Positions 3,782 through 64,000 of a DNA stretch of 64,000 nt are shown piece by piece. A model generated the notes under the pieces. It was given only the letters and a program-made list of their open reading frames with translations, did no database searches and was not told the origin of the DNA. Both the position numbers and the translations under genes were made by a program. Positions within the stretch are counted from its first letter, which is position 1, and the number at the start of each line of letters is the position of its first letter. The stretch is from Xestospongia bergquistia (lineage: Eukaryota; Porifera; Demospongiae; Haplosclerida; Petrosiidae), in assembly GCA_963965975.1 (NCBI GenBank), contig OZ014417.1, forward strand, positions 2,957,821 through 3,021,820, written 5' to 3'.

Positions 3782-5913
3782 CTACCGTTTATTATTTTGG
3801 TTGGATGAAGATTGAGATCCAATACAACAAACAAAAATGATGAAAAGTAAGATTAAAGCAATCACCATCAAAATACCAACTAAAATTGCTATCCATACAG
3901 CAGCCACTGAACAAGCATATATGTTCACTACAGATCCAAATACAAAAGCAACAAAATAGAAAAAAATCCATCCTCCCCCTGGTCCTTTGACAATGCAGCA
4001 GATAGAAAAAGTAAGTAGCATTATTGAATAAAGAAGACAAAGGATGATATGGAGAGGACTCTTAAAGGGATATGCTAATTTATCACAAAACCGACCGTTA
4101 GGAATTCTCTTAAAGTCTTCTTGGAGTTGTTCTTCATTAAGATAATCAACGACTTTTCTAACTTTATCAGCAATTTTCTCATCTTTATAAGAAGTTAAAG
4201 TACCTTTTATTGAACGTTTTTTAAGGACTTTGAGAAAATCAAGAATAAACTCAATTGGGAATTTCTGCGTCCAGAAATGATGCACAACAAAAAACATGAT
4301 CACTCCAAATATTGGTGTAACAAATGCACAACATATCATGAACCATAGCTCACCACTAAGTCTGTAGTTGATGTCAGTCACTGGAGTATTAGTAGATGTA
4401 TTAGTAGGAGTAGCATTAACAGTAGGAGTAATAGTAGGAGTAACATTAAGAGAAACTATAGGAGTAATAGTAGGAGTAGCAGTACTAGTAACAATAGGAA
4501 AAACAGTCAGAGTAACAGTAGGAGCAATTGTAGAAGTAATAATAGGGTTGTCACCAGATGAATCACTACTACTAGATGGAAATGAATTCACTTCTTGATA
4601 TAATTCATTATATTCATTGTAGTAAGTAGCTCCAATAGCAACAATCATACAAATTTGTAGTATCATAAGACCATAGGTATAGAGAACAAATGTAATCTGA
4701 AATTTTGCACCTTCAAGCACATTTTTCTTGTCACGAATTTTTGCTACAGAGTAAACTGTCCCTGCTAAAATAAATGCCCGAGCTACATAAACGAGACCAA
4801 GCTGTCCAACAAAACTAATAATATTTGATAACCATGTAGTAACACTAATCATATGAGGGTCATTATCATTGACAACAAGCTCTGTTGCAAACTGAAAAAT
4901 GCTAATAATAAGGCCTGGATAATACAACATCTCATTAACAAACACACGAGTGACATCAAATGCAGTGGAACAAGGCTTTGGACAACATTTACATTTGTCC
5001 TTGCAGCAGTCATCAGAATCTGGTTCAACTTGATTATCAATCCCTTTATTCTTTTCCTCTTTCCACTGTTTCCATTCTTTGCATGTTTTAAAACGACGAT
5101 GGTAAATATGGTAAACAGATCAAATATTGAAAAAACCATACCAATTGCACCAAATATTGTCTTAAAAAGTCCAAAGAAGTCATCATCAACATCGTTTTCA
5201 TTGATTCGATTTCTGATAAAACCTGAAAGAGAAATTAAAAAGAACAGTAATGCCCACAAAAACCCTCCATATACAGCAACCTCTCGAACAGTTGAGCCAA
5301 AAGGGGTACTAGTGAAGATGTTATGAATGCTTACCACAATATTTTTTATACCTAGAGTCTGTGCTCGTCTAATAGACTCAGTTTTAGGTATAAGATCTTT
5401 TTCTTCTTTTTGTTCTTCTTGTACACCATGTTGACGCTTTTTGAGAGGAGATAAGAGCCATTTACAAGAGTATGCAGTACAACAGCAGTTGAGGCATTTT
5501 TCGAAAGGTGAAGGACTGTACACCGGAGTAGCTCCTTCTATCATCTGTGGATACTTTGTATGTTCTATCTCCATTATTGCTACATCAACCATTAATAGAT
5601 ATCTTTTTTGGACCCAGCATTCCATTATTTGACCTTCACTTGTTTCTGTCTTCTTAACAACTTCAATTTGTTGTTTTTGCATTACAGTTTTCATTCCTTT
5701 AACAGCAATACGTTCATGTTGTTCATCTGATCTTTTTTCAATACCAATAGCTGTCATTCCAACTGTATGTTGTTCTGCTTTTACTTCCAAAGTGACATTT
5801 TCGGCCATAACATGAGGTTGCTCTTCCATAATATGGTTGGTATGAGGTTGTAATTGTTGCTCTGTTACAGGCACAGGGGCAGGCTCAATAGAAGGAATTT
5901 TTGAATCAGCCAT
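3782..5913 (-). CDS. Multi-pass membrane family protein, copy A, with one frameshift
   Basis: Member of the unrecognised membrane family. The N-terminal frame (5913 to about 5116) starts MADSKIPSIEPAP, carries a cysteine cluster (KCLNCCCTAYSCKW) and a first membrane segment, and ends in a shifted frame. The C-terminal frame (to 3782) carries the remaining membrane segments, from EMLYYPGLIIS to the hydrophobic tail ending SSSNQNNKR. The break lies at about 5113-5117. There the minus strand reads CTGTTTACC, where paralogue A' has the codons for F-Y-H-A-Y-H; one missing T in the T-run explains the shift. Otherwise A is about 75% alike to A'. Its outer loop is a long Thr/Pro/Val-rich mucin-like stretch (NPIITSTIAPTVTLTV onward) between membrane segments 5 and 6. 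Either a consensus error or a young pseudogene. The start is chosen by identity with A' and a TATA box 51 bp upstream. Confidence 0.85.
4380..4545. repeat. Degenerate minisatellite encoding the Thr/Pro-rich outer loop of copy A
   Basis: Repeats of GTAGGAGTAA/GTAGGAGTAAC with a 6-bp subrepeat and 12- to 18-bp higher periods lie inside copy A. On the minus strand they encode TPTITPTV-like repeats. Copy A' has a much shorter version at 27025-27075, so the tract has expanded or contracted in frame. Confidence 0.8.
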
Positions 5914-5963
5914 CTTTGCTATTAGTTTTGTTACTTGATTTTTAGATTAGAGCAAAATCAGTT

Positions 5964-5971
5964 CTTTTATA
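5964..5971 (-). promoter_or_regulatory. TATA box of copy A
   Basis: Minus-strand TATAAAAG lies about 51 bp before the ATG at 5913. The same element with the same spacing is present at A' (28586-28593) and, as TATATAAG, at B (14351-14358). Confidence 0.6.
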
Positions 5972-5984
5972 GAATAAGAGATGA

Positions 5985-8900: not shown

Positions 8901-9360
8901 AACACAGGTAAACAAGATCAGGGCTCATTGCAGCGACATTTCTGTATCATGAATAATAAATTACAATAATAAATTATTAATCGAAAATGGCGTTTCTCGA
9001 GGAGACTTCAGTATATTAGACTTTTTTCACTGTTAAAGGGGTCGAAACGAAACTTCTAAATTGAATTCAAATTATACAAACTGAACAAAACAGTGTAGCG
9101 CCCAATTATGCTTTGAAACCAAAAATTGGCATGTAAAAGGAAATATAGCATATACACAGATATAGTAAAGAGTCTTGCAGAATGATCTGACTTTACTGCC
9201 AATAAAATTGTTGTGTCCCGAAATATTCTATGAACAGCAATATCAATATATTAAAATAGTAATTTTCAATTAAAAATCTGACGATAATTATTGAAACATT
9301 TTAGAAAATATCAGGATATTTATAACAAATTTAATCAAATGACATAATTATTCAAGAAGT
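5985..9360. other. Long intergenic region, no supported gene
   Basis: AT-rich, with many stops in all frames. The first part parallels the upstream flank of A' (28600-29600). From about 7880 to 9360 it is collinear with the upstream flank of gene B (14360-16320): TTTACATCATATGTGAA and AAGTAAACATTTCCAAGAAA occur in both. A TA tract lies at 8716-8740. An ATGGCGTTTCTCGAGGAGAC word at 8987 has a counterpart at 15876 but opens only a very short frame here. Confidence 0.6.
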
Positions 9361-9589
9361 TTAAGAAACTTATTAATATTTAAAATAAGTTCACATTGTT
9401 GAGTACAGTGAGGTCTTAAGAAGTTCAAGAAAGAGGAAAAGACCACTGAGAAGTGGGTGGAGTTTTATCAGTGAAGTGACAATTGGTAAAGATTTCTGTG
9501 AATAAAATAGTCAGAGAAATTTTTGACTATTAAAGACTTAAGTTAATAATTATAATAAACACAAATTATTAACGTGCTGTCCTTGGAAA

Positions 9590-10530
9590 TTAGTGTATTA
9601 AACCTTCATTGAGTAAGTTACATGCACAACAATAACATAGGATCATATTAGAGTGTCTGTACTGATAGAATAAAAGATTTGGTTTTACTTGTTTTCTCAT
9701 CCATTCCAACAGACTAGGTGTGGTCTGTGCTAACACAATACTTTGTACTGTCTTGTCTTTACTGTTCATCAGTTGTAATGAGAGATGACCCACAACAGAA
9801 AACAGAGCATTACTAGCTAGACTCTTATCATAAATACATTGGAATACATACACAGAAGAAGTATTAACAAAGTGTAATACACATATATAGCGACATTTTG
9901 TTCTATTGTAACCAAGTATCAATACATTTATTTATTATCTATTAAAAATTTCAAATTGGCTTATTAATTATATAGTGCATAATGTTAAAAATATTATTGG
10001 TAGATTTCATTGACCTCTTGTCCTTTATCAGCAGCAAGTAAGTTAGCTACCCAGTGAGTGTATACCTCATCAACAGGCAGTCCCCATAATGAAGCTAACA
10101 AGAACACTATATCAGTAAACTGGTTTAATTCACTACTAACTCCTCCTGATTGCTGAGATTGAGCTACTGCAGCAAACACAGCATTAGAATTAATATGAGG
10201 TGACATATTGTCTAATAGAACTATCACAGCTCCATTAACAAACTAGAGAAAAAGGCAATAAACTTAGGTTTGACTAAAGTGTAGAGTTGCCTTCCTTTTG
10301 TTCGTTTTTGAATTATTGCTCTTCCAATTTGTTCTTCTGCACCTTTAGACAAATATAATCTTTTCTTCCACCATGACCGTACAATAGGAGCATAATAAGT
10401 GAATACATTCACAGGAGAAGAACATTCAAGAATCACTTCAGCTTGTAATAGAAGTTTAAGATTTGTCTTGAGAAGACAGGTATCCAGTATTGGAAACAGA
10501 CTCACAATAGCTGGAAGAAACTATATACCT
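9590..10530 (-). pseudogene. RAB3GAP2 3' fragment, copy C1 (exons 24-26)
   Basis: Three exon copies in RAB3GAP2 order on the minus strand. The exon 24 copy (about 10518-10289) includes SWWKKRLYLSKGAEEQIGRA. The exon 25 copy (about 10242-10014) includes SQQSGGVSSELNQFTDIVFL and has lost three codons (GIP) relative to the main gene. The exon 26 copy (about 9844-9689) includes TTPSLLEWMRKQ. The coding frames are open, but the donor after exon 26 has changed and the block stops at about 10540, where it is joined to the copy of the 358-1030 segment. With no upstream exons or promoter it cannot encode the full protein. Its 3' flank (9360-9600) is one of five copies of that flank. Confidence 0.85.
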
Positions 10531-10627
10531 GTAGGACTACATGGAGTATATATATATATACAGTATGTATAATATTGAAATATTAATCTTACTAATGTAG
10601 TTGTATTATATCATCCAGTACTAGTAC

Positions 10628-11280
10628 TGGGTTGACTGAAGTCACACCTATTAATGTACCAAATAATGATATATCAGTTGAAATGGAGATAGAAAATGAT
10701 GATAACGAAAATGAAAGACCACCTGTTGATAATATTCATAGTTCAGAAGATGAAGAAACACAACCGTTATTAGAAAATGTGTCGAGGTTGGTTTGTATTA
10801 CACTGAAATATACATTAAAGAAGAATGCTATTTACAAAGAGACTGAGTGGACGTGAACATAATGGGACTTCAAATGATGAACTGTGTGGTTCAGTGTGAG
10901 TTCAAGTGTATAATGCAAGCTATGTATAAGAAAATAGTCTTTTGTAGTTCTACATCTATCATATCAGGAAGTGCTAAAACAAAATGTTGTATAATTTTAT
11001 GAAAAAAGTAAATATGAAATATAGCATGATAAATTTCATGAACTGAAGAAAGAGATCAAAGAACAACATAATGCTGTCCTTTTAATTAGCACATAAAGGA
11101 AATATTAGCATAATAATAATTATATTAAAGAAAGATATATACAATAACAGTGCTACTGTATGCAGCCACAATGTTGTAATATTACTAGTTATATAAATAT
11201 TGATATCATAACTATTTGGTGATTGTGAGGAATATCTAGCTAGAGGTACCAGCTGCTGCTGAGGAAAATACAATTTGCTA
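10628..11280 (+). pseudogene. Partial copy of the acidic-tail gene at 358-1030
   Basis: Begins at TGACTGAAGTCACACC and keeps the frame MTEVTPINVPNNDISVEMEI...EDEETQPLLENV to a stop near 10856, then follows the 3' flank of the first copy. Relative to that copy there is a one-codon loss in the Asp run and several substitutions. The upstream exons are absent; the left junction falls in RAB3GAP2-derived DNA. Confidence 0.7.
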
Positions 11281-11400
11281 CTGCAGTAACTAAAGCTAGT
11301 TTGTCAATATTTCCAAAATATCACAAAATTGTGCCCACTCCATTGTCACAGTATTCAACTCCTCCTTCATCAATGTTACCAGCTGGACTCTATATAAGTA
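11281..11400 (-). pseudogene. Decayed RAB3GAP2 exon 19 fragment
   Basis: Short stretch similar to 24030-24150: CAGTAACTAAAGCTAGTTT, then TTGTGCCCA, CATTGTCACAGT and CAGCTGGACTCTATA in the same order. It is degenerate and frameshifted, and directly abuts the end of the 10628-11280 copy. Confidence 0.65.
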
Positions 11401-12290
11401 TTCTAGCACAGTGACAAAAATGCTATGATATAATGCTAATGCTTTGTTTAAGAACATAAGAGTAATGAATAATCTCTAAGAGTAGGCTTCAGTAAATGTT
11501 GTATTGAAATGATAGGGTTAGAGGCTAAAGGTCTGGTGACTTAAGTTGTGTCACTGCTAAGAGTTATTTCCTTGGTTTAAAAGATTTATTGATGCACTGA
11601 CAGTAGAGCAAATAAAAGTCAATGATTATGGTGTGCTTAAATACTAAATAATATGCCAATCTCCTAGTTCACCATTTTCAGTCTAATCTACAAGTGTCCC
11701 AACCCTTAGAGAACCATCTTACTAATAAGTGCTATCCAAACATTGCCAGAAACTGCAAGTCAAATTCAACAATGAACTTTCAACCTTTGAATTCATTATT
11801 TGTAAATTGTGAGTAAACAAATATGAGTAGTTAAGGAGAGGTAAGTTGACCTACATCTTTTTGATGCCTTACCAAAAACATAATTATTGTCTAGCCACAG
11901 TTTTACTTGGACTTGTTAATAAAGTTGTTTGATTTCAGTTCATAAATATCACAGAGGTTTAAGGATGTTTGATACAAATATCCAGGGAAGTTTATAAGTA
12001 TTCCTGGGACCTATAATGAAACCTATCACCCTCCCATCAAATTTCTTCATGCTATGGATACAATATTATGTGAGCTTTCCAAGGTACAGCATACAAGACA
12101 ATTAATTATTAATTTACTAGCTAATGACACACGAATATATCAGATTATACATAACATATCTTAAAGCAATATATCATATTTTTAGTTCCACACTTAAATA
12201 AACTTTAAAAAATAGGGATAAATTTCACAAGATATGAATAATAATAATCACAATTAATTTAATTTAATAGCGCGAGTTAAAAGCATTTTA
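11401..12290. other. Intergenic, nothing recognised
   Basis: AT-rich, no open frame of note, no obvious repeat. It includes the 3' flank of gene B. Confidence 0.6.
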
Positions 12291-12298
12291 ACAAATAT

Positions 12299-14305
12299 TT
12301 AACGGGGAGGGAGAGATTGAGAAGGAGATCTGGCACAACAATAAAACATTAAAAACATAACAATAAGAGCCAAAATCACAGCCAAAATTATATTCCACAC
12401 AGTAGCTATACAAAATGCATACAGGTTGACAAGACAACCAAAACAATAGGTAATAAAAAAGAAAACAGACCATCCATATGAAGAACTTGTACCATTAATG
12501 GTGAGGGCATAAAAAAAGCTAAGAAGGTAGTTGTACACAAAACAAAGAACAATAATTTGTGGGGATTTGAAGGGATAGAATAGCTTGGCTTTGAAAGGTA
12601 TCTCATTAAAACGTTCTCTCACTTCATCTACTTTCAAATAATCCTTGAGTTTTTTACTTTTGTCATTTACATCATCCTTTAATGTAAGGAATCCACCTGA
12701 TTTAAGGTGTTCAAGAAAAGTAAAAAGAAAATCACAGGGAAATTTCTGTGTCCAATAATGGTGCACAGCAAAAAACACCATCACTCCAACTATAGGTGTA
12801 AAAAAACAACATATTATCATATACCAGAGTGCACCACTAAGCTGGTAGTCAACATCAGTGCTATTTAGACGTGAAGCCATTTCAGCTGCAACACTGTATT
12901 CAAAATAGTAACGAACTGTTATTGAGATAATCATACAGATTTGTTGTATCATAATCCCATATGCAAAGAGAATGAATATAGAATGAAACAAAACTCTTCC
13001 GATGTTCTTAAAATTCAGGATCCTAATCACTGTGAAAAGTGAACCAGCTAAGATAAAAGCACGAATTACATAGACTGTCGCAAAGTCTCCAAGAAAACTG
13101 ACGATAGTCAGTAGCCAAATAGAAACACTGATTTTTGTAGCATCATTATTGTTGTCAACTAGTTGAGTAGCAAAATCAAACACACTAAGTATGACACCAG
13201 GATAGTACAACATCTCACTTATAAAGATACGAATAAAATCTATTGATCTTGTGAATTTTTCACCAAGGCATGTACATTTCTCATAGCAACATGCATCAGA
13301 ATCTGGAGGTTCAGAATTCGTTTCATCATTTCTCTCTTTATTCATTTCATTATCTGTCTCTACAATTGTTTCATCGTTCATTTTATAATTAGTTTCATTA
13401 TTTGAGGTGTTTTTCTTTTTTTTGTACCATTCTTTCCATTTGTTACACGTTGTACATCGTCGGTGATAAGCATAGTAAATAACATCAAAAATTCCAAAAC
13501 ATAAAACAAGTGAACCAAATGCAACTCCAAAAATTGGCGCAAGACTTTTACCTTTGTCTGTAATCAAGCCACTTACTGAAATCAAGAAGAATAGAAGTGT
13601 CCACAGAAATCCTCCATAAAGAGAAACTTCACGAACAGTATCTCCAATGGGAGTGTTTGTGAAGGGATTGCTAAGACTTTTTTTGATTTCAGCCCAACCT
13701 AATGATTGCGCATTTTTGAATTCTGGAGTATCAGGCAATATCTCTGCCCTCTCTACCTTCCCTCCTCTCCTGCAGTGACAAAATAACTCTGTACAAAGCC
13801 CAAAACTGTACGATCGACAACAGCAATTGACAAACGAGTCATACTTACCTGGATCATAAGTCAGACTCTCAACATTTTCATCCTTTTCAAGACTTTCAGG
13901 ATTTTCATCCTTTTCATGACTTTCAGGATTTTCATCCTTTTCAAGATTTTCAGAATTGTAATCCTTTTCACGACTTTCAGGATTTTCAATAGTATCTTCT
14001 TCAGGAGCTTCTTTTAACACTTTGGGCTTTTTTCGGTTTTCAATTTCTAAGAGGATGTTATGATAAATGGTTTCACGTCGCGTCCGTACCCAAGGTTCAA
14101 TGTATGTATTGCTACTAGCCTCAACACCAATCTGCTGAACATTTTCTTCATCTTTTGGGTCAATCACTTGGTCTAACTCGTCTTCTGGTGGTTGATTACT
14201 ATTTGAAGCTGGAAAAGATGAGTCTGAAATTGGTTCCATGTGTGGTTCCAATTCTTGGCCAGATTCTATTTCAGCAGAAACATTGTCTGATGGAAATTCA
14301 GCCAT
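12299..14305 (-). CDS. Multi-pass membrane family protein, copy B (intact, 668 aa)
   Basis: Intact single-exon member of the family. Residues 1-150 are acidic and hydrophilic, with repeats of the NPESxEKDE type at about 108-147. A cysteine cluster follows at about 161-178 (NCCCRSYSFGLCTELFCHC). Membrane segments start with EVSLYGGFLWTLLFFLISVS; next come a loop with HRRCTTCNKWKEW, a charged Asn/Glu-rich linker, and EMLYYPGVILSVFDFATQLV with four or five more segments. The outer loop between segments 5 and 6 is short here (one NST sequon). The tail is hydrophobic and ends SPSQSLPPR. It is the most divergent copy in the window but keeps the whole architecture, which argues for selection. Function unknown; a plasma-membrane or organelle multi-pass protein is inferred from hydropathy only. 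Confidence 0.9.
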   Translation of the reverse strand: MAEFPSDNVSAEIESGQELEPHMEPISDSSFPASNSNQPPEDELDQVIDPKDEENVQQIGVEASSNTYIEPWVRTRRETIYHNILLEIENRKKPKVLKEAPEEDTIENPESREKDYNSENLEKDENPESHEKDENPESLEKDENVESLTYDPGKYDSFVNCCCRSYSFGLCTELFCHCRRGGKVERAEILPDTPEFKNAQSLGWAEIKKSLSNPFTNTPIGDTVREVSLYGGFLWTLLFFLISVSGLITDKGKSLAPIFGVAFGSLVLCFGIFDVIYYAYHRRCTTCNKWKEWYKKKKNTSNNETNYKMNDETIVETDNEMNKERNDETNSEPPDSDACCYEKCTCLGEKFTRSIDFIRIFISEMLYYPGVILSVFDFATQLVDNNNDATKISVSIWLLTIVSFLGDFATVYVIRAFILAGSLFTVIRILNFKNIGRVLFHSIFILFAYGIMIQQICMIISITVRYYFEYSVAAEMASRLNSTDVDYQLSGALWYMIICCFFTPIVGVMVFFAVHHYWTQKFPCDFLFTFLEHLKSGGFLTLKDDVNDKSKKLKDYLKVDEVRERFNEIPFKAKLFYPFKSPQIIVLCFVYNYLLSFFYALTINGTSSSYGWSVFFFITYCFGCLVNLYAFCIATVWNIILAVILALIVMFLMFYCCARSPSQSLPPR
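13861..13990. repeat. 27-bp coding minisatellite in gene B
   Basis: About four to five tandem units based on TCAGGATTTTCATCCTTTTC, each encoding a nine-residue NPESxEKDE-type repeat. All length changes are multiples of three, so the frame is kept. Confidence 0.85.
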
Positions 14306-14350
14306 TCTAATGTGCTAAATTGTTGAGCTGATTTCAGAAGTGTCGATGTT

Positions 14351-14358
14351 CTTATATA
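14351..14358 (-). promoter_or_regulatory. TATA box of gene B
   Basis: Minus-strand TATATAAG, about 46 bp before the ATG at 14305, matching the position of the TATA element in A and A'. Confidence 0.55.
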
Positions 14359-14359
14359 G

Positions 14360-16330
14360 AAAAGTGAGATCATTTACATCATATGTGAAGAATTTCTTGG
14401 AATACTGCAAGAAGTAAACATTTCCAAGAAACTATTCACTACAGTTTTTACAAGATACTATAGATGACTTAGGTAATGCAAACACAAATCATTTATACAA
14501 TGGTTATTTGGTGCATTTCATAATATTAATAATTGTTCTTTGTTATGTTAATACATTCTTTAGTGAGTAACATAGTTAGTATAGCAATTCCTGTAATTAC
14601 TTTAACATGAATATAGCCCAAATGACAAGAGTGCATAGATCTATTAAAATAATCATGTGAGTGTCTATTTATACTGACCAATACTCAAAATCAAAATCAT
14701 AAATTCTAAGCTATACTATAGCTGTATACTAAGTCTCTATACTTGATCCACTCATGGACAGTGAGTGGAGTGATGATGGCTTAATCTTTGAAGGGTTTAT
14801 TTAGGTTAACCGTGCATCGACTGTAAGACCATAGTAAGTAAAACTGTTGTTTCTCAGAACTCTCTCCAATATAGGAATTGGTGTGTGAGAAACAATGAAC
14901 TTCATTATTATAGCCTAATAGAGAATTTATGAAATTGATTTTTGTCTAGCAGGAACTGACCAAATCATATCAGCTGCACACAATAAATGGACTCTTATAA
15001 AATATTGAAATAATTGAATTTTCTATTCAGCAAAATAAACTGCTGTACATTTATATTTCTAAAAAATTCATGAAATGTATAGAGATGGCAGTACAAACAA
15101 AACCACAGTAGTAATGGCAGTATAAAATCCCTACGTTGAAGCCACACATAGAATCTCAATAGATGTATATTAGGGCCTTAAGTTGTGGATGCTATGTAGA
15201 AATCTTTTTACAGCCATTCCTATTGTGGTCTTATTTACATGTTTGCACTGTCATTCCTATATTTCACAAATTTTTTAGAAAATTTTATATACATGTTAGC
15301 AGTCTGTTTTTATAAAATGGTTATACTTAACTTTAGGTACTACCTAATTAAGTATGATCTAAATTATTAATTATGGTGTTACTCCTAGACCTTAAACTGG
15401 GACTATTAAACACCTGAGCATACAATGTACAGTCAGAAATCTCCACTAACATACTTTTGTTATTTGCAGTTATTATTAGTTACTAACTTATTATTATGCA
15501 TAATTATTAGGTGAAGTACATAATAATTCATATGCATAATTCACTGGGAGTAAGACATCTCTGTAGAAACAACTCTTTTAATAATAATAGTTATATCATT
15601 TATAAGTATGTGTATATGTATATATGCAAGTAAGTAAATGAGCTAACCAGCCAAATGCTCTAAAGTACACACTCAGTCATATAGTCTCGTGTAGCCAGCC
15701 CCTATCTTAAATAACTAGCTATAGAAGTTTGATATGACAGGATAGTTATTTTCTCCTTACAAGAGAAAGATGTACCAGAAAAACATAGGAAACAAGAACC
15801 AAGGCTGATTGTGGCAACCGTCCTCCATTTTCTTTTCATGAATAATAAATTGTAATAATTTTTAATATACATAAAATGGCGTCTCTCGAGGAGACTACGC
15901 TACTTTCACTGTTAAAGGGCTCGAAACAAGACTTTTAAAAGTGGACGAAAAAGATATGGTGCTCAATTATGCTTTGAAACATAAAATTTGCATGTAAAAA
16001 GGAAAGACCAGTATTGTAGATATGTTGAAGAATCTTTAAAGTGCTATTACTTCTCGTATGTGTATTCACAAACCGTAATACTGCTGGTCACAAATAAAGT
16101 TCCAGTTGACTAATTGGAAATGACAATCCAAGACTAAGCAAAATTACTGTACCTCCAATAAAAGTTGTTGTGTCCAAAAATATTCTATGAAGAGTGTTAT
16201 CAATACACTAAAAGATTGAATTTCAATTAGAAACCTGAAAATAATTATTGAAACATTTGAGAAAACTTTCTGAATATTTATAACAAGACTAATGAAATGT
16301 CATAATTATTCAAAGGAATTTAAGAAACTT
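14360..16330. repeat. Upstream flank of gene B, collinear with 7880-9370
   Basis: Segmental copy of the 7.9-9.4 kb region, sharing CATCATATGTGAA, CCAAGAAAC, ACCTGAGCATACAATGTACAGTCAG-type words and the ATGGCGT(C/T)TCTCGAGGAGAC word (15876). In this copy that word opens a plus-strand frame MASLEETTLLSLLKGSKQDF before a stop. No splice partner was found, so it is not called as a gene. Confidence 0.6.
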
Positions 16331-16551
16331 ATTAATATTCAGAATAAGTTCACACTATTGAGTACAATGAGGTCTTAAGAAGTTCAAGAAAGAGGAAAAG
16401 ATCACTGAGAAGTGGGTGGAGTTTTATCAATGAAGTGACAATTGGTAAAGATTTCTGTGAATGATAAAATAGTCAGAGAAATTTTTGACTACTAAAGACT
16501 TAAGTTAATAATTATAATAAACACAAATTACTAACGTGCAGTCCTTGAAAA

Positions 16552-16810
16552 TTAGTGTATTAAGCCTTCATTGAGTAAGTTACATGCACAACAATAACAT
16601 AGGATCATATTAGAGTGACTGTACTGATAGAATAAAAGATTTGGTCTTACTTGTTTTCTCATCCACTCCAATAAACTAGGTGTGGTCTGTGCTAACACAA
16701 TACTTTGTACTGTCTTGTCTTTACTGTTCATCAGTTGTAATGAGAGATGACCCACAACAGATAACAGAGCATTACTAGCTAGACTCTTATCATGAACACA
16801 TTGGAATATC
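16552..16810 (-). pseudogene. RAB3GAP2 exon 26 fragment, copy C2
   Basis: A single exon copy encoding GHLSLQLMNSKDKTVQSIVL and TTPSLLEWMRKQ, preceded on the plus strand by the repeated 3' flank (16320-16560). Read through its donor, it ends with the same residues as C1 (LLNEGLIH). The exons upstream of it are missing: at about 16870 the sequence changes to unrelated DNA. Confidence 0.8.
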
Positions 16811-16869
16811 TATAAAAAGAAGTATTAACAAATAGTAATACATGTATATAGCAATATTTTGCTCTATTG

Positions 16870-17735
16870 TAACCAAATATCAACACATTATTAATATCTT
16901 TAGTATTTCAATTTGTTTATTAAAAACTTTATGTATGTGATCACAAAATCAAATTATTGTACTGATGTTGTTATCATAATATATATTGTTTTACCAAACT
17001 TCCTAATTGTTTACATATCCATTTATTTTTTCTAACATTGACTGAATACAGGATAATTCAGGAAGATATTGAATCATACTGCCAACATAGCAATTGTTTG
17101 CCGTATTGGGCATCCCAGAAGGAAAAAATGACTCGAAATTGCACAATGAATGGTTTTCCATTATTCTTTATTCTTACCTATCAGCGTTAATACGCTGTTT
17201 AATAATAAGTGCGCATGAGAAGTTTACGCAAGCGTGCCAGCACAGGTGAAAAAGGGTTAAATATTTTGCCTAACTTTCTCCGGTTAATTGTATGTGAAAT
17301 TCACTACTTTCACTGTTAATGAGCTCGAAAACAAGACTTCTAAAAGTGAAATTAAATCATACAAATTGAATGAAAGAGATATAATGCCCAATTATGCTTT
17401 GAACATAAAATTTGCATATTAAAAGAAAATACCAGTACAATGGATATATTGAAGAATTCATGACTGTACAACTTCATGTATGCATTCACAAATTAAAATT
17501 ATGATACTACTGCTCACAAATGAAGTTCCAGTTGAATATGTGTAAATGACTATTCAAGACTATGGAGAATAACTTCACTTTCAATAAAAGTTGTGTCCAA
17601 AAATATTCTATGAAGAGTGTTATTAATCTACTAAATATGTAAATTTCAATTAGAAATCTGACAGTAATTACTGAAACAATTGAGAAAAATATCTGAATAT
17701 TTATAACAAGTTTAATCAAATGACATAACTATTCA
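16870..17735. other. Unique segment between RAB3GAP2 copies C2 and C3
   Basis: From 16900 to 17280 the sequence is not shared with the other copies. It includes a locally GC-richer stretch (17190-17270, TATCAGCGTTAATACGCTG onward) that breaks into the duplicated context and could be an insertion. From about 17285 the duplicated 3'-flank sequence resumes (CACTACTTTCACTGTTAA). Confidence 0.45.
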
Positions 17736-17912
17736 AGAAGTTTAAGAAACTTATTAATATTTAAAATAAGTTCACATTGTTGAGTACAATGAGGTCTTAG
17801 GAGTTCAAGAAAGTGGAAAAGACCACTGAGAAGTGGGTGGATTTTTATCAGTGAAGTGACAATTGGTAAAGATTTCTGTGAATGATAAAATAGTCAGAGA
17901 AATTTTGAAATA

Positions 17913-20719: not shown

Positions 20720-20950
20720 TTTAAAGGAGTTTAAGAAACCTATTAATATTTAAAATAAGTTCACATTGTTGAGTACAATGAGGTCTTATAAGAGTTCAAG
20801 AAAGAGGAAAAGATCACTAAGAAGTGGGTGGAGATTTATCAATGAATAATCAAAATATTCAAAGCAATTATTGAAATATTAATATTAAAGACTTAAGTTA
20901 ATAATTATAATAAACAAAAATTGTTAACTTGTTTTCCTTGAAATTAGTGA
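20720..20950. repeat. Orphan copy of the RAB3GAP2 3'-flank repeat
   Basis: About 230 bp containing AAGTTCACATTGTTGAGTAC, GAGGTCTTA, AGAGGAAAAGA and GAAGTGGGTGGAG. It is one of five copies; the others lie at about 9360-9600, 16320-16570, 17735-17990 and 21780-22035. Those four directly follow an exon 26 copy, whereas this one has no exon beside it. Confidence 0.85.
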
Positions 20951-21064
20951 ATATAAAAGTGAATTTAAATTATTCAAACTGAATTAAAGGGATGCAGTGC
21001 CCAATTACGCTTTGAAACATAAAATTGTTATATAAAAATAAAATACCAGTAATAATAGATATAT

Positions 21065-22126: not shown

Positions 22127-36647
<14,521 letters not shown>

Positions 36648-37950: not shown

Positions 37951-37999
37951 TGGACTGAGGGTTTCTCATTTCCCTGGAATGGCTTTTGTCTTGCATACC

Positions 38000-46934: not shown

Positions 46935-49900
46935 TATATTCCCTATTAGTCTCTCTCCTTTACAATTTCTGTTAGATAAAAGAGTAGTCATCAAACTGTT
47001 CAGTAAAGGTGATGAGACCAACAATTGAGTGGTTAAGAAAAATACTGTCTATCAATCCACTCACCAGAAGTACATAAAAGTCCAAAACTATACTCTTGAG
47101 TGAGATTATAAAAAGTGGAGCTTGACTTACTATTAGTCACTAATAATAGACTGAAGTTTAATAGTACCATCATGCCAATAATGGCCAGGTTAACAATTTG
47201 AAACTTCAGGTCATCAGTAACTAGTGTAGTACTTAAATATACATAAATGAAGAATTTCTGTGATACAGAGCGAACTTTATTAAACTGCAACAGCACTTAT
47301 CATTATTGATAGTATACTGACTTAAAACACAGATCAGGTTAATCTTTAAAATTATGCTTGTAGCTTATTGGTTACTTAATAACAGTATTGTGGACATTGA
47401 GACATCTTACTTTTTGTCTATGTTCTATGTTTTAGTTTATTTATTTTCTACTAAATATTAAAATGATTTAGTCCTTATATTATAATTACCTTAATTGATT
47501 AGTACATTTGGTAGTTAGAATAATGTACATAATAGAAACAGAGTATGCTCAGAAGATAAATTGATAAACCATTCCCATCAGGTATATAACCTGAGATATA
47601 TTCATTGTGGTCATATAAATAAAACATAGCTACATTTGGCCAAATTAAACCATGCTTCATTATAACAATATTATAATAATAAAAATAGTACTGCTACTAT
47701 AAGGGACAATATTATTACTATGTTTTAAAATCAGAGAATTCGTAAAACTATTAAAGACATTTTCTTAAATAACAGAACTCAATCACTCACAACCAAATTA
47801 AAAATATTCATTGATTGATATGTAGAACATTGGTTACTTTATATAATTTGATTTTATTTGGTACTCTAAAAAGTCACATACAACAATAGATTAAATTAAG
47901 AAATGGACATATCACAATATACAGATACACACATACACACACGTGTGCATGGTCCAAAATGAACTTAGAATTGTCGGCATGGCACGTGCAAATCTAATAA
48001 AAACATGGAAATAGCAACCAAATAAAACAAGCCCATAGTTGCTATATAAAACTGAAACATGGCCACAATGTCCATAGCAGCCATATAAAAAGTGATAACA
48101 AAGGAACTACATAGCAAATGGTCATAGTAGTCAGCTGAATAAGCTGGTAACATGTGGAGTAAATTTCAGAGACCTGATATCACATGTTAGATGCTAACTG
48201 AGATGACAATCTGTGATAAACATCTACAAAATGCAAACCATTGATTTTAAACTTTCCTTTATCTTTGTCTTACTTGCACTTAAATTAACAGATTGAAACT
48301 AACATTTTATGAAAAAAATAAATATTAACAAAAACAGTACAATGTCCTAATTGTTAATTTTTAAAATTAGGAATTGTATGTCTAATCAATTTAAGATAAA
48401 AACTGTTTTGGGAATTTTGTTTGGTAGAGAATATTCCATATAAATTATGTCCGTACAAGCTACATGTGCGCAGTATATGTAATGTATTTGAAAACAACTC
48501 ACCAAGAAGATGAAAGTTGCCAGATCAAGTTGAAGAGACTCTGGTATACTTGGTTTAATGTTAACAGGAGTTAATTCAGCAACATCTACTGACAATTTAA
48601 ATTTGATAGAATCTGTAATATCAGAAAGCAAACAATCAATATCAGGTACTCTGGTATCAAAACATCCAATCAAGTCTGATAAGTTTATTTCCTGTGTTAC
48701 TCGTTTGACAGGTACATAAGTCTGGAAATATAATTTCAGCAATTGTGCAATGCATTCAGACGAGGTTGGAGTGAGGTTACAGAGCTTAGTTAACAACTAT
48801 AAAGGAAAAGATTGTTGTTAGTATGTTAAATGTGTTAAACATCTTTTAACTCATTTCATTAAAGTCAAGTAGTCTTGTCTCCAGACTTGCTTAAAAAGAG
48901 AAAAGGTTTAGGTAATTGAGAGCATTAGAAACAAGACTACTACTTTGGCTCATGTCCTTATCAATAATTATGTATATTGTGTTATTATGGAAATGATTCT
49001 ATACAAAATTAAGATCTCATTACACATTCTTGTATCTAAATTGGATGTTTATATTGAGTTTGAGAAAGATTTTACCACTTCTGGTCACTTTGTTAGTCAT
49101 TGTTATAACCAATATAGCTATATTGTTAATTCTACATACTTCAAGTATTCCTCTTCTAGGTAAATAGATGCACAGACATTGTGCTCTACTCTGTGACTCT
49201 GAAGGATCAGACACAACTAACCAACCACACTGAGCTTCACGATATCCTACAAATATAATAGAAAAGATAAAATAAAAAACAATAATGAGTATCTCATAAA
49301 TACAATAATGTAAGTATTATTATATATGCTAACACAATAGTCAACTGTTCTGTACAGTTTGTATATCTTTCCACATTCTTCTTATAACTAGACTAACAGT
49401 ATCTAGTAATAATACTCGTCCAAAACCATCTACTAAGGCAGCTAAATTACCAATTGGAGATACCACTATACTGTTGACCTGTCGTCTAATATCAGGTATA
49501 TTAGTACTGTGAGATATGAGAGAAAGAGAGATGGAAATAAAAAAGTGACCATAAGCATCAAATGCATTTTATAGTGTACAATATGTATACCTCATTGATA
49601 AATTTAGAGTGCGTTGTTGTTTTTCTTCAGGTGGTTTAGTTGGTGTCTGGACAACGCTACTCTTCCCTCCTCCCAACCAAACCATCCTGATGCCTGAGAT
49701 AACTTTCCTAGAACAGCACTAGTCATACGTGATGCCATTTCATGTACTACTTCAGTAACATTTATGGTACCAGCATCCTATCACAGAACAACAGAACAAT
49801 ATAAATTTGTCAATATGTAAAAATTAAATTAGTTACAAAGTCACAATTCTAATTTCTTATAATACTTTTGCCTTTATTGATCACTTTATAAAAGTTTAGT

Positions 49901-50738: not shown

Positions 50739-53700
50739 AACTACTGTTAATGATGAAGATGTTAAAAACCTACCCTCACTTGCTGGTGGCTATCATGTGA
50801 CCAGCCTCAATGCCAAGAAAAGAGGGTTAACTTGTGATCCTTTGACGTCTGCTAAAAGGGCAAAATCCAACAATAGGTGAGAGGATTATTGATAAACTGT
50901 ATACAACTTACTTCTGTCTGACTTAGAATAATTCTTCCTGATGTTGAAATTGAACTATCACCTGCGCCATTGCTTAATTCTTTGGCCACGCCCTCAAGCA
51001 AGTTGATGTTCCTATGGAAACCACAAAAGATGCAAGTATTGAAGATAAAAGCAACGAACAAAAGAGACCAAGAGAGCCTACCCCTCCAGTCCAAGAAGAT
51101 GAGAAAGAGATAAAAGAAAAAAAAGTAGATTATTAAAATTTGAGATTACTTATCATTAAATTTTATTTAGAGAGAAGATACACTTAAATTGAAGAGCAAT
51201 CTGACTCAAGTGTTCCCCTCTCCTTCTCGAGAGTGTTCAATCACTCGAAAAAAGGTGCCAATACTTTGTGCATCCAGTTCTATACCACCTATGGTAAGTA
51301 ATATCACAGGCAAATCACTTTTAATATGGTATACATAAGCAGCTGTTGATTACTCCCTATTATTTTTTAGGTATCTTTTTCATCTCATGATTCAGTAACA
51401 GAAGAGGCTATTAAGAAAGATAGAGAAACAGCTAGCATAAGACTTAAGAAACTTCTCACATCTGATGATCCTGAAGACATCAGGAAAAGTAAAAGAGCCA
51501 ACAGAACTTTCAATGATTCTTTTTTTTCCTGTACAGGTGTGTCTCTGTCTACTACCTCCACTCCTGTTACATCTCAACAAGCCATACCCTCTATTTCAAC
51601 AACTGCTCTGGTGTCTGGATCAGGAGTGTCGTCAGGAGGTATGAAATTGAGTTCTGAAGGACTTAGTATTGGAACTGGTACACTTCCTTCAACTCAAAGA
51701 ACTTTCTTGACCTCCACAACTTCTATCTCCACTGTGCAATCCATGCCTAATTTAAATGTGAGTTTGCCATCCTTGACACCAATAACCACACCCACTGTTA
51801 CAATCTGTGCAGCCAAAGTATTCAACTGAGCAATTTCTTACCATCAATGACCACAAGTCAACCAGCTGCTCAAACTAATGTCACTTCCATCCTTACCAAT
51901 CCTATTCCTGCTTTTAGCGGGGCATCATCTACCACTGGTCTCATTCCTACTTCTGTTACTCAAAGTTTAAGCTTAAATCTTCAACCCAGTGCTCAACCTC
52001 AAGAATTAAATATTGGGAGTCAGTCTGCCATGTCTTGTTCAACTTTAAGTCTTGTGACACAATCTGGAGGTCTTGGCTCTGGAGTTAAATTAAGTAATGC
52101 ACTAAGTTTATCACAGTCTGGAACCCAATCTGGAGGAACCAGTCCTAGGGTTTTTAATGGATTGAAAATTCCAAATCTTACTAATCCTACTTCGATTCAA
52201 AGTCAGACGCAATCCACTTCACTATTCCAGTCAAACTTGATTGATAAACCTGTTGTGACAAGTACGTCATCTCTTGCATTAAACTCTGCTGATACACAAA
52301 GTGCTAACATTTTCAGACTCTCAAGTGCCTCTGGATCCTCTCAAGTTAACAGTATACCTACTGCACAATCAGTATTAAATGCTCAACCAACTATTAATTC
52401 ATCTGTTCTCAGTATTGCTAAGAGCAGTGGAAACTTCCTGTTTAGTTTAAGTAATAATACTGCCTTCAATTTCTCCACAAATCAACAAAATAATTCTAGC
52501 AATCCGTTAGGACTGAACCAGTCACTCTTTGGAAGTGCTTCTAGTGGAAGTCAGGTTACTCAGAGTGGACTGACATTGAACACAGGTACACAGAAACGGA
52601 CTCAAGTTGGAGTCTTGCAGTTTGGTCTTGGGTCTCATCAGCAGGCTCAATCATCTGGCTATCAGGTTGGAACTGGGTCTCAGCAACAGTCTCAATCCAT
52701 TGGCCTTCAGTTTGGGCTAGGGTCTCATCAGCAGGCTCAATCGTCTGGCTTTCAGGTTGGAACTGGGTCTCAGCAACAGTCTCAATCCAGTGGCTTTCAG
52801 TTTGGAATTGGGTCTCAGCGAAAAATTCTACAGCAGCCTCAGTCTGGTGGACTCCAGTTTGGGTCTGGGTCTCAGCAAAAACAGCCTCAATCCAGTGGCC
52901 TTCAGTTTGGAATTGGGTCTCAGCAAAAAATTCAACAGCAGCCTCAGTCTGGTGGACTCCAGTTTGGGTCTAGGTCTCAGCAAAAAAAGCCTCAATCCAA
53001 TGGTCTTCAGTTTGGTATTGGGTCTCAGCAGCAACCTCAGACCAGCAGTCTTAAATTTGGAATTGGATCTCAGTCTAGTGGGCTTTTGTTTGGAACTGGG
53101 TCTCAACAACAGTCTCAAATCCAAGCAGGCAGCAGTTTCAAACAAGGCAGTGGCCTGCAATTTGGAGCTGGATTTCAGCAACAACAGCCAGGAGGAGGCT
53201 TACAATTTGGAATGCCACAATCTAGTCAGTCAGGAGGCTTAAATTTTCCTTCAGTGTCTCAGCAACCATTGCAGTTTAATTTGTGTTCTCAGCAACAGCA
53301 GAAACAGGAAGGATTGCAATTTAGTACAGGAGTGGGAGGAGTACAACAAACTGGGTTTCAGTTTAATAGTAATTCCCAGCAACAAAAGACAGGAGGATTA
53401 TTTCAAAGCTTTCAACAGCAACAACCCGCTACTGGTCTACAGTTCAATACTTCACAGCCACAAAATGCTACACCAAGTAGTGGGCTACTATTTAATCAAC
53501 AATCATCTACCAAAAATACAGGGTTGTTTGGAGGAGGAGGGACTCAGACCAGCACCAATCCTGGAATTTTCAGTTCTGGACCCCAGACCTCAGCTCCTTC
53601 CAATGTCTTTAACCCTATGTCTAAGCCAAGTTTTAATTTCCAGCAAGGCAGTACAGGTTCTAATAATTCTGGAAATACATTGCTTTTCAATCAATCCAGT

Positions 53701-54078
53701 GATCAAACAGGTTTTAATATCCAGCCAAACCAATCGCAGATTGGCCAAACTAATTCTATATTTCCTAGTGGACCACAACAAACATCTGGCCTACCCAGCT
53801 TTGGAGGAAACCAGCTAGCCAAACAATCTCCATTTCAGTTTGGCACCACGGGTAATCAACCAGGTAATCTGACATCAGTTGGCAATAATATGCCTTTTTC
53901 AACAAACTTTAACTTTGTTAATAATAAGACACCTCAAAATGTCACTCCTCAGCCATCCAATCAAGGTGGTGGCTTTAATTTTACACAAGGAAATATGACG
54001 CCCAATACAATGAACTTTTCAGCTGGTCATTCTAGACCAATAGCAACAAGACGAAGAGGTGGTCTTAGAAAAAAATAG
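50739..54078 (+). CDS. FG-repeat nucleoporin, POM121/Nup153-like C-terminal region
   Basis: Nuclear pore component whose FG repeats line the channel (family knowledge). Exons: 50739-50877 (after an ACATGTAG acceptor; RTTVNDEDVKNLPSLAGGYH), 50927-51127, 51174-51294 and 51371-54078. The third exon encodes a basic helix-poor stretch; the last begins VSFSSHDSVTEEAIKKD. It continues with Ser/Thr-rich sequence, then dozens of FG, LQFG and FNF motifs, ending RRRGGLRKK, a basic tail like those I recall for POM121 and Nup153. Two single-base shifts interrupt the frame: near 51000 (SLATPSSK to VDVPMETT) and at 51828 (before LSNFLPSM). Each is explained by one missing base in a two-base run. The first exon starts at an acceptor, so upstream exons existed; they are replaced by duplicated RAB3GAP2 DNA. 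Which nucleoporin it is remains uncertain. Confidence 0.8.
52590..53110 (+). repeat. Tandem coding repeats in the FG domain
   Basis: About ten units of 54-69 bp encoding variants of SSGLQFGIGSQQKxQQ. Units are more alike in DNA than the rest of the FG region, showing recent in-frame expansion; alternate units pair up (QQAQSSG then QQQSQSSG; QQKIQQQPQSGG then QQKQPQSSG). Confidence 0.9.
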
Positions 54079-57662: not shown

Positions 57663-59474
57663 CTAGCCCGCCATCGTACCCAAACATAACGCTAATGGTA
57701 TTATTATAACACCGAAAGAAACTAATATTGCTATAATAGCACCTAATATAGCAATGATGACAGCCAGGATCACTGCACTTGCAACTAATATAGCAATCAA
57801 GATCGAAGCAATACCAACTAATACAACAACCAAGGTCACTGGCCAAAATAAAGCCACTAGAAAAACATACCAGTTCACTATCAATCCAAATACTAACACA
57901 GAAATGTAGTAAAGAATCCAAGCTCTGCCAGATCCAATAATAACACAGCAAGCAAAAAAACCAATTAACATAGCAATATACAGAGAGCAAAGAATAATAT
58001 GAGCAAGTCTCTTAAAAGGATAACTAAACTTGTAGCAAAAATTAAGATTCCTAATAACACAATAGTCTATAAGTTTGTGATTGTTTTTGTTAAGATGTTT
58101 TGATAGCTTTTCTAGTGTTTCTACATATTCTTTCCCTAACTTCTTTAACAGTACTGCTTTCTTCATAGAAGATTTTAGGCTTTCAAAGATATCTAAAACA
58201 ACTTCAATTGGAAATTGCTGTGTCCAATAATGACACACAACAAAAAACATTATTATTCCAAGTATTGGTGTTACATAGCCACACACTATAACATACCACA
58301 TTTGACCACTAGGACTGTAGTTAATATTGACAGTTGGGGGAGTATTGTAGTTTCCAGATGAAGCATTACTAACGTTCATTAGAAGAAGAGCAGTGTGGTT
58401 CACAGATGAAGCATTACTAATATTCACTAGTGCTGACGCCTCTATGTATCTTTCACTGTATTCATTGTAGTATGCACCTCCAATAGCAACAATCATACAC
58501 ATCTGTAGTGCCATAAGCCCATAGCTATAGAGAGCAAACATTACTTGAAATATTGCTCCTTTAAATATGTTCTCTTTGCCACGAATTTTTGCTACTGAAT
58601 AAACTGTCCCTGTCAAGATAAAAACTCGAGGTATGTATACCAAACAAAGCGTAGAAAAAAAACTAAATATAAATCCAAACCATGTAGTGCCCTTTATCAT
58701 ATGAGGATCATTATTGTTAATAACCAGCTCAGTGCAAAGTTCAAAAACAGAAAGAGTAAGGCTTAGATAAAACAGTGTCTCTGCAAACAACACACGAAAA
58801 ATATCAATTAAGGTAGTAACCGACTTTGGGCAACACATGGTAACTTCTTCAGCAGTGAGATTGTCACTTTGGTGTCCATCATTGATTTCAATTTCTACAC
58901 TGCCAACGTTAACATGATTTGGATCATTCCTTTTGCAACATAAGCACCTTAAACAACAAGAACGATCATTATTTACATTATTTTGTCTCCATTTCTTCCA
59001 CTCCTTACAAGTCTTAAAACGATGATGGTAAGCATGAAAAAACGTATCAAACAATGAGAAAAGCAAACCAGTTCCGCTAAAGATGGTTGCTAAAAGCTTA
59101 AACCAATAGTCATAACTATCATTTCCAGTGACCTTATTTTTAATAAGTAGTGCAAAACTTTTTTGGAACAAAATCAAAAAGGATATAAATAATCCCCAGA
59201 CACAAACTTCTTTAACAGTTGACCCAATAGGAGTTTCAGTGTAAATGTTTCTGAGACTTTTATATATACCTTTCACGCCAAGACTCTGTATTTTCCTGAC
59301 ATGTTTTTTAATAAACATTTGACTATCTTCACATAAATCACAGCAGTCACATTCGAATAACAATTTATCACACGAACATGTAGAAAAGCAACAGCAAAAG
59401 CATTTTTCAAGATTTGACAATGCTGTAATATCTTCTTGAATTTTTTTAGCCGGTGTAACTGTGAGTTTACTCAT
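57663..59474 (-). CDS. Multi-pass membrane family protein, copy F (intact, 603 aa)
   Basis: Intact member, closest to E and G. It shares the cysteine cluster (EKCFCCCFSTCSCDKL), HHRFKTCKEWKKWR, CCLRCLCC and all membrane segments. The second cysteine group is reduced to MCCPKS because the linker has been partly deleted. The outer loop carries an internal duplication, with VNISNASSVNHTALL followed by MNVSNASSGNYNTPP, which doubles its N-glycosylation sequons. The ATG used by E is lost (ATG to ACA at the homologous site near 59620). The frame now starts MSKLTVTPAKK after about 100 bp of non-homologous sequence, possibly through a spliced 5' exon. The C-terminal tail is a long Ile/Val/Ala-rich hydrophobic stretch longer than in E. 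Confidence 0.9.
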   Translation of the reverse strand: MSKLTVTPAKKIQEDITALSNLEKCFCCCFSTCSCDKLLFECDCCDLCEDSQMFIKKHVRKIQSLGVKGIYKSLRNIYTETPIGSTVKEVCVWGLFISFLILFQKSFALLIKNKVTGNDSYDYWFKLLATIFSGTGLLFSLFDTFFHAYHHRFKTCKEWKKWRQNNVNNDRSCCLRCLCCKRNDPNHVNVGSVEIEINDGHQSDNLTAEEVTMCCPKSVTTLIDIFRVLFAETLFYLSLTLSVFELCTELVINNNDPHMIKGTTWFGFIFSFFSTLCLVYIPRVFILTGTVYSVAKIRGKENIFKGAIFQVMFALYSYGLMALQMCMIVAIGGAYYNEYSERYIEASALVNISNASSVNHTALLLMNVSNASSGNYNTPPTVNINYSPSGQMWYVIVCGYVTPILGIIMFFVVCHYWTQQFPIEVVLDIFESLKSSMKKAVLLKKLGKEYVETLEKLSKHLNKNNHKLIDYCVIRNLNFCYKFSYPFKRLAHIILCSLYIAMLIGFFACCVIIGSGRAWILYYISVLVFGLIVNWYVFLVALFWPVTLVVVLVGIASILIAILVASAVILAVIIAILGAIIAILVSFGVIIIPLALCLGTMAG

Positions 59475-59559
59475 TATATATTTAGGATTTTTTTGTCTTT
59501 AGAACTTCACTATTGCTTGTTTTCTTCAAAGACTTCTTGAATTCACTATTTTTGTAAAA

Positions 59560-60530: not shown

Positions 60531-60534
60531 TTTA

Positions 60535-61775: not shown

Positions 61776-61784
61776 ACATCAAAG

Positions 61785-63222
61785 TAAGATTAAGGGAATA
61801 TAGGCATAACTCTATGTTAGTTTAAAGGTTCTTTAATTATTTTTATTGCTTTAATTATTATACTTTTAAAAGCTATTCAATAAAATTGTAGAATTGATTA
61901 ATAGTATAAATGTATGCACTTGATGAAAGTAAAGAGATACCTTTGTCATAGTGGGACAGCTTTAGTAAAAACTTATAATAAATACACAATAATAATTATC
62001 AAAATATATGTAAGTAAGTAAAAGAAGAACATAATTATGTAGCCATGACAGGAATGTATGCATGTACAGTGATCAGAACATCATAACAGACACTAAGTAG
62101 CAAAATATAAAGTAGAATAAGAAATGAACATTCAGATAACTGGCTTATATAATGCAAACTGCAGAATTAACAGATCACTTACTATAAGAGTGTGGTCAAA
62201 GATGGACAATCAATAAAAGTTGATTGTCATTTTAACACTATTAAAGAGATTGGTTTTTAAATCTATTTTATATTGTTGGCAAAACTATTCTATAATAAAC
62301 TATGTCACACTAGTTATTGTACGAAGAGAATGTTATAATAAATACAAACCATTCTAAAGTCTCCTATAAATACAATACAATATAATTTATGATAGTTTAG
62401 GGTATCAAGACAGACCCAGTAACATTGTTTATGACTATAATTCAGTTCTTATGCCTTTTTAAAACCTTACTATTGTTCAAGTGTAGCTAATGTGTATTAA
62501 AAATGAAAGCATTGACACACTTGGCCAAAGATTTATATGCAGCTGTCTTCTTTATGGCCTAATGTCTTGATAATTAAAGCTCTTTTGTGACCATATTGAT
62601 AGACTCTTCTCATGTATTAGCAAAAGAGGAGGATGTAGCTGAATACACTAAAGATATTTGCATTACATAAGACACATATAATCTTATATACACAATATGA
62701 TACTATACACAGCTTTTATTTCATACCAACACCATATACTTATATCAATATTAACAAGGGAGTTGACATAGGATAGTTTGGTTTGTTCTTATATAAATAC
62801 AGGAGGGAAAACTATAGGATAGGTCAAGCCAAGTACACTCCCTTATAGATACAGTTCAATATCATGTCTGGTTATGTTAACTTAAGTAGTAATTTCATAC
62901 ACACATGCAATGTAATAATACACAGAAGCTATTGAAAACCAACATATGTATATACACCAATATCAATCAGGGAGTTTGCATAGAGGATAGACTTAGTTTG
63001 TTCTTATAAAAATTTCTCCAATACACAACTTTATCTTTAACGGACATACTACATATAAATGTAATAATTGAATAATAATAGGTTCAATCAAACATCCATA
63101 CTGTCATTGATTATAATGAGAGTTATTTATTAATTAGTAATAAAATGGGGTATATATTAAAAGAGTGAAATAAGTACATGTAGCTATCAATCAAAATCAT
63201 AATGAATCTGTTATAGTAACAC
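61785..63222. repeat. Family-gene 3' flank, third copy
   Basis: Collinear with 56390-57660 (GTAGAATTGATTAATAGTAT, GCAAAAGAGGAGGATGTAGC, AGGATAGGTCAAGCCAAGTA). It marks a tandem unit of about 5.4 kb. Confidence 0.85.
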
Positions 63223-64000
63223 TTAGTATATACTGTCCATAAAACCAGCCATAATAGCCAAACACAACATCAAAGGTACTATTATAATTATAAAACAAAT
63301 CAATATCGCTGGAATAACAACTAATATAACAACCAAGATCACTGGCCAAAATAAAGCCACTAGAAAAGCATACCAGTTCACTATCAATCCAAATACTAAT
63401 ACAGAAATGTAGTAAAGAATCCAAGCTCTGCCAGACCCAATACTAGCACAGGAAACAAAAAAACCAATTAACACAGCAATATATAGATAGCAAAGAATGA
63501 TATGAACAAGCCTCTTAAAAGGATAACTGAACTTGTAACAAATATTAACATCCATAACAATATCCCAACAGTATGCACGTTTGCGATTGTATTTATTAAG
63601 ATGTTTTGATAGATTTTCTAGTGTTTCTATATATTCTTTTCCTAACTTCTTTAACAGTACAGCTTTCTTCGTAGGAGATTTTAGGCTTTCAAGGATATCT
63701 AAAACAACTTCAATTAGAAATTGCTGTGTCCAATAATGACACACAACAAAGAACATTATTATTCCAAGTATTGGTGTTACATAGCCACATACTATAACAT
63801 ACCACATTTGACCACTAGGACTGTAGTTAATATCAACAGTTGGGGGAGTATTGTAGTTTCCAGATGAAGCATTACTAATGTTCACTAGTGCTGATGCCTC
63901 TATATATTTTTTATTATATTCATTGTAGTATGCACCTCCAATAGCAACAATCATACATATCTGTAGTACCATAAGCCCATAGCTATAGAGAACAAACATT
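63223..64000 (-). CDS. Multi-pass membrane family protein, copy G (C-terminal 258 aa, continues past the window)
   Basis: Open to the window edge. It holds segment 5 (MFVLYSYGLMVLQICMIVAI), an outer loop with VNISNASSGNYNTPPTVDIN, segment 6 (MWYVIVCGYVTPILGIIMFF), the cytosolic LKKLGKEYIETLENLSKHLN helix, YPFKRLVHIILC and a hydrophobic tail. The loop has one NISNASS unit where F has two. Nearly identical to F over most of its length. Confidence 0.92.
   Translation of the reverse strand, partial: MFVLYSYGLMVLQICMIVAIGGAYYNEYNKKYIEASALVNISNASSGNYNTPPTVDINYSPSGQMWYVIVCGYVTPILGIIMFFVVCHYWTQQFLIEVVLDILESLKSPTKKAVLLKKLGKEYIETLENLSKHLNKYNRKRAYCWDIVMDVNICYKFSYPFKRLVHIILCYLYIAVLIGFFVSCASIGSGRAWILYYISVLVFGLIVNWYAFLVALFWPVILVVILVVIPAILICFIIIIVPLMLCLAIMAGFMDSIY

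Follow-up and report, generated by a model that had tools for sequence, protein, structure and literature searches.

The described membrane proteins that come closest to the gene family reported here are the XK-related (XKR) phospholipid scramblases (PF09815; XKR4, XKR8 and XK in the PDB) and the animal GPCR/7TM families. XKR proteins span the membrane about eight times with both termini in the cytosol, and their third segment (TM3) has an acidic residue with a proline downstream. GPCR/7TM families are also multi-pass, often occur as clustered expansions, and vary in their outer parts. Sponges are an early-branching animal lineage in which many genes lack an assigned function.

The window, by which we mean the whole analysed stretch of 64,000 nucleotides from the sponge Xestospongia bergquistia (C7:2957821-3021820, within a 146.46-Mb genome of 21 contigs), carries a tandem array of such multi-pass proteins. 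A sequence-only reading of this DNA had placed seven loci on one strand, and tblastn within the window recovered all seven on the minus strand: five near-complete copies (A, B, A', E, and F), a relic, and a seventh copy, G, truncated at the window end (Table 1). If bases were drawn independently, the expected number of 600-codon open frames in the window would be about 5e-18. Copy A has lost a single base relative to its relatives, immediately ahead of HRRFKTC, which splits its frame, and its outer loop is Thr-rich. Copy A' has lost four bases near 26670, shifting the frame in TM7, so that its similarity to TM8 of copy A continues in another frame to about 26452. Because A and A' each bear one frameshift, the label 'intact' fits B, E, F, and G. 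Copy B is the most diverged of the array (34% identity to E), and the earlier claim that it had nevertheless stayed intact holds, as it is a single open frame. Copy G is complete and intact at L016:47-1786:- (580 aa, 89% identity to F), and the relic matches E or F at 58-81% identity over short pieces. The array also extends past the window, to an interrupted copy at C7:3042791-3044442. Residues are numbered below as in copy E, with the codon at 44010 as amino acid 1.

Table 1. Family loci in the window (window positions) and composition of the three genomic clusters.
Feature	Position	Strand	Content
Copy A	3785-5946	minus	N part 5116-5946 and C part 3785-5113, in overlapping open frames
Copy B	12302-14314	minus	intact 671-aa open frame, first M at aa 4
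Copy A'	about 26452-28568	minus	open over 26592-28568 (658 aa)
Relic	41217-41521	minus	TM6-7 linker through TM8, broken frame
Copy E	42208-44025	minus	intact 606-aa open frame
Copy F	57666-59498	minus	intact 611-aa open frame, 74% identity to E
Copy G, C-terminal part	63244-64000	minus	runs off window end
Cluster C7			B, E, F, and G intact; A, A', and the copy at 3042791-3044442 broken; one relic
Cluster C4			two intact frames (639 and 672 aa); fragment at 7026526
Cluster C9			six intact frames (511-550 aa); fragments near 1628473 and 1631670

The array is interspersed with other sequences. Between A and A' (9188-24148, minus strand) lie several partial tandem copies with 78-91% DNA identity, one of which matches RAB3GAP2_C (PF14656, 1.7e-6) while another matches weakly, under the cut-off (0.004); expansion of the array thus seems to have gone along with duplication of parts of a neighbouring gene. 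Between A' and E (37408-38599, minus strand) are retroelement pieces: an aspartyl protease (PF13975, 1.6e-11) and stretches that match gag or Ty3 capsid weakly. An open frame present twice on the minus strand (30588-30920 and 48386-48796; 92% DNA identity over 620 bases) has no Pfam match in its first copy. On the plus strand, 51371-54078 holds frames rich in Q, G, and S in which GLQFG and similar FG motifs recur; they have the look of an FG nucleoporin, and the long frame among them has no Pfam match. Elsewhere in the assembly, contig C21 (18,997 bases) looks mitochondrial: its cox1 frame is open only if TGA is read, cox2 was confirmed by Pfam, ATP synthase subunit c (atp9) is encoded, and 25 tRNAs are predicted, one of them labelled SeC under the bacterial code. 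An atp9 gene in the mitochondrial genome together with this reading of TGA would point to a sponge, most likely a demosponge. Nuclear cox1-matching stretches with internal stops (C6:3154917-3155898 and 3199148-3200446) are NUMT-like.

Whole-genome searches with copy E, two C9 proteins, and one C4 protein, whose counts are lower bounds, found at least 12 intact family genes in three clusters (C7, C4, and C9), with frames of 511-672 aa. C4 and C9 contribute 8 intact members beyond those of C7, and the five that entered our 10-row alignment A3, from which C9_0, C9_2, C9_5, and the pieces of A were left out, show 20-23% identity to E. In hhalign comparisons the clusters nevertheless found each other at 96.3-99.6% overall (C7-C9 99.5%, C7-C4 99.4%, C4-C9 96.3%), against 0.1%, 9.8%, and 0.2%, respectively, for reversed decoys. 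Judged from these profile alignments, the three clusters are homologous. Each cluster also groups in a maximum-likelihood tree (C7 with 95/99 and in 92% of 200 bootstrap trees; C4 and C9 with 100/100); the tree was built from 13 of the 14 rows, the C part of A being dropped, and the long branches of B and A' leave their placement unsure. The idea of a tandemly expanded multi-pass family is thus upheld by the paralogues, the profile links between clusters, and the hydrophobic segments, and the family is larger and more diverged than had been reported from the window. An ankyrin-repeat protein frame lies near a C4 member (L009:1000-3162, plus strand).

The signature motifs proposed in the sequence-only reading are present in the window copies, with exceptions from copy to copy. 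HRRFKTCKEWKxW is exact in A, A', and E, and its counterpart is HHRFKTCKEWKKW in F, HHRFKTCKEWKKC in G, and HRRCTTCNKWKEW in B. The leader R-x-(A/L)-x-(S/T)-LG-(V/I)-K is exact in A and E; its third place is I in F and G (RKIQSLGVK), and it reads RRALILGVK in A' and KNAQSLGWA in B. ETLFY occurs in E, F, and G, and EMLYY in A, A', and B. The outer loop ends in LSG-x-LW in A and B, in PSGQMW in E, F, and G, and in LSDELW in A'. Finally, YPFK(S/R)PxHIIL is exact in A, A', and E, with YPFKRL in F and G and YPFKSPQIIVL in B as counterparts. In the alignment of members, the C4 and C9 relatives share none of these signatures in full. By this comparison the motifs, including HRRFKTCKEW and the N-terminal cysteine cluster, mark the C7 subfamily, whereas the residues kept across the whole family are different ones.

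Hydropathy plots show eight main hydrophobic segments plus, in most copies, a long hydrophobic C-terminal stretch; boundaries were set by eye, and some segments stay under the threshold in some copies. Basic stretches follow TM2, TM4, and TM6 (by eye), and E, F, and G together have 21 N-glycosylation sequons, 14 of them in the loops TM1-2 and TM5-6; both observations make an inside N terminus plausible. Since the other 7 of 21 sequons lie in predicted cytosolic parts, this topology is plausible rather than shown. Identical in all 14 aligned rows are E261 and Y265 (TM3), F342 (TM5), W407, P417, F424, and W431 (TM6), and P498 and Y511 (TM7), and N546 (TM8) is identical in all 13 rows with a residue there. 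At position 163 (TM2), 11 of the 13 rows with a residue have D and the other two N; at position 274, 11 of 14 rows have E, two Q, and one D; and at position 353, nine of 14 have H and five Q. The family-wide pattern of E-x3-Y in TM3, W-x9-P-x6-F-x6-W in TM6, and P and Y in TM7 is thus present in every row, and its N in TM8 in the 13 rows with a residue there; the pattern was derived from the same 14 rows used to score it. These invariant residues hold across clusters that are only about 20% identical.

The proteins had been described as matching no known family, and profile and sequence searches of Pfam and the PDB agree. In Pfam-A, ten members gave no convincing match (best E 0.03), and we rejected the weak names that appeared, a NOMO1-like model in 2 of the 10 and ten other names once each. 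Rejected likewise were the best matches to the parts of A, a mucin-like model in the Thr-rich C part (E 0.021) and LptD_N (0.026). Four further Pfam queries yielded no convincing match, and the family consensus among them had none. Searches of PDB sequences with E, the family profile, and the C9 profile returned nothing below E 0.4. A weak resemblance of the cytosolic TM6-7 linker to the MIT domain (VPS4B; 1wfd; E 0.43-1.7) was rejected as chance; it covers only about 50 residues of a poorly conserved region that is mostly absent in three C9 copies. Limited pattern scans of viral and prokaryote contigs gave 37 matches with two peptide patterns and 15 with one pattern, and tblastn confirmed no relative among them. 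The Pfam listings of members, consensus, and parts of A contain no 7TM model. The family would also differ from GPCRs in segment number and orientation if, as eye-read hydropathy and charge suggest, it has about eight segments and an inside N terminus. Among the literature matches listed, none describes such a family. As far as these tools reach, the family is thus undescribed relative to the Pfam and PDB libraries and the literature searched.

XK-related scramblases were tested by name because of their likeness in TM3 and topology. If the family consisted of strongly diverged XKR relatives, the E-x-L-x-Y-P in TM3 of most copies would correspond to the acidic residue and proline of XKR proteins, and the multi-pass build and predicted cytosolic ends would be shared as well. 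However, hhalign of the family, its subfamilies, and single members against the genome's own XK proteins (an XK side of one or two sequences) gave 0.1-0.9% over 11-75 columns, whereas two XK proteins of this genome found each other at 97.6%. PF09815 matched none of the 10 members listed to E 10, while as a control the genome's own XK matched it at 2e-60 (205 bits), and no XKR protein appears in the PDB profile listings. The genome carries its own, separate XK genes. With no Pfam, profile, or PDB link and no sequence relationship detected, we rejected the assignment and consider such an origin improbable.

The sequence-only reading had further suggested that the copies are under selection, and had named dN/dS well below 1 as supporting evidence to look for. 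We estimated omega with a pairwise codon model and tested 2dlnL against omega 1. Recent pairs gave 0.48 for E-F (2dlnL 22.0), 0.53 for E-G (17.8), 0.51 for F-G (8.9), 0.62 and 0.44 for the two parts of A against A' (4.1 and 13.4), 0.59 for the C4 pair (4.9), 0.13 for C9_1-C9_2 (15.4), 0.40 for C9_4-C9_5 (7.1), and 0.42 for C9_3-C9_4 (35.9). Thus omega is significantly below 1 in nine of ten recent comparisons, the other being C9_0-C9_1 (0.70; 2dlnL 1.5). The suggestion is confirmed for A/A' and E/F, and pairs with B are lower still: the older pairs A'-B, A'-E, B-E, and C9_1-C9_3 gave 0.06-0.25, with dS saturated (2 or more). The protein as a whole is under purifying selection. This bears on whether the genes are a decaying, non-functional family of relics, as the broken A, A', and copy at C7:3042791 and the fragments in all three clusters might indicate. 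Set against twelve intact open frames of 511-672 aa, the omega values, and residues kept across deep divergence, that account is very improbable.

Regional omega values all rest on few changes. TM6 is among the most constrained regions in recent pairs, at 0.15-0.26 in E-F, A-A', the C4 pair, and the pooled recent C9 pairs (0.52 in C9_3-C9_4); in the same comparisons TM3-5 gave 0.22-0.40 (0.68 in C9_3-C9_4). Constraint on TM1-2 is not clear (0.87 in E-F, 1.02 in C4, 1.52 in recent C9, 0.67 in E/F/G, 0.37 in C9_3-C9_4). When core and non-core omega were compared by bootstrap, E-F (0.873) and E-G (0.790) showed no significant difference, and in C9_3-C9_4 the direction was reversed (0.023).

The TM5-6 outer loop is likely relaxed. 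Its omega is 1.35 in E-F and 3.5 in A-A', and the C4 pair and recent C9 pairs have no silent change there. Pooled over five recent pairs (E-F, the C part of A-A', C4_1-C4_2, C9_0-C9_1, and C9_4-C9_5), amino-acid to silent changes stand at 34.5:4.5 in the loop and 134.3:79.7 in the TM core (Fisher p 0.003 on the rounded 34:5 and 134:80, a post hoc choice). The pool omits E-G and F-G, which depend on E-F, the nearly identical C9_1-C9_2, and C9_3-C9_4, with 9 loop codons. Such a loop, together with tandem birth and death that leaves intact copies beside broken ones in clusters, and an omega of about 0.5 in recent pairs, which is relaxed, would suit a lineage-specific family of sensory, immune, or allorecognition receptors, in which a glycosylated, variable TM5-6 loop would meet the ligand and the conserved core would signal to the cytosolic parts. 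Yet the loop shows no significant difference between pN and pS (p 0.16), and positive selection is therefore not demonstrated; loop omega is 0.85 in pooled E/F/G and 0.62 in C9_3-C9_4; B and the C9 copies have a short loop; and no receptor model matched. We hold this receptor role to be a close rival of the reading that we tentatively prefer.

Our tentative preference is that these polytopic sponge proteins, whose roughly eight membrane segments would pair into four hairpins, form a channel, transporter, or scramblase-type bundle. It builds on what can be read from sequence, namely open frames, homology of the three clusters, hydrophobic segments, conserved residues, and purifying selection; the steps that follow are inferred. 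Polar and aromatic residues placed in TM2, TM3, TM5, TM6, and TM8 (D/N163, E261, Y265, E/D/Q274, H/Q353, W407, P417, W431, and N546) may make up the functional path through a channel, transporter, or lipid scramblase, a step less well supported than the topology or the lipidation that the cysteine-rich cytosolic parts of C7 copies might undergo. The fast-changing outer loop and cytosolic parts could then tune what regulates each copy. The conserved residues could alternatively be structural only. Against a bundle count the lack of a detectable internal repeat (7 comparisons, all below 1%, A and A' omitted), which many transporters would show, the unclear constraint on TM1-2, and the unsupportive bootstraps. 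An invariant intramembrane part with acidic and polar residues beside a loose loop slightly favours a pore, transporter, or scramblase over a receptor, and this is our best guess, with both readings inferred.

A broader and unlikely possibility is that the genes represent a superfamily confined to sponges that has its own membrane fold, with a ligand-facing loop that varies from copy to copy and a shared, invariant polar core inside the membrane, for example a new class of ligand-gated channel or scramblase for symbiont sensing or self-recognition. Because families without a model are common in such genomes, the find is useful, and would not be startling until a fold or activity is known. A membrane family that has many genes, residues strongly kept throughout, and no Pfam model makes a concrete target: mutations can be aimed directly at the residues invariant in TM3 and TM6 and at the looser outer loop, and the three clusters serve as natural replicates.
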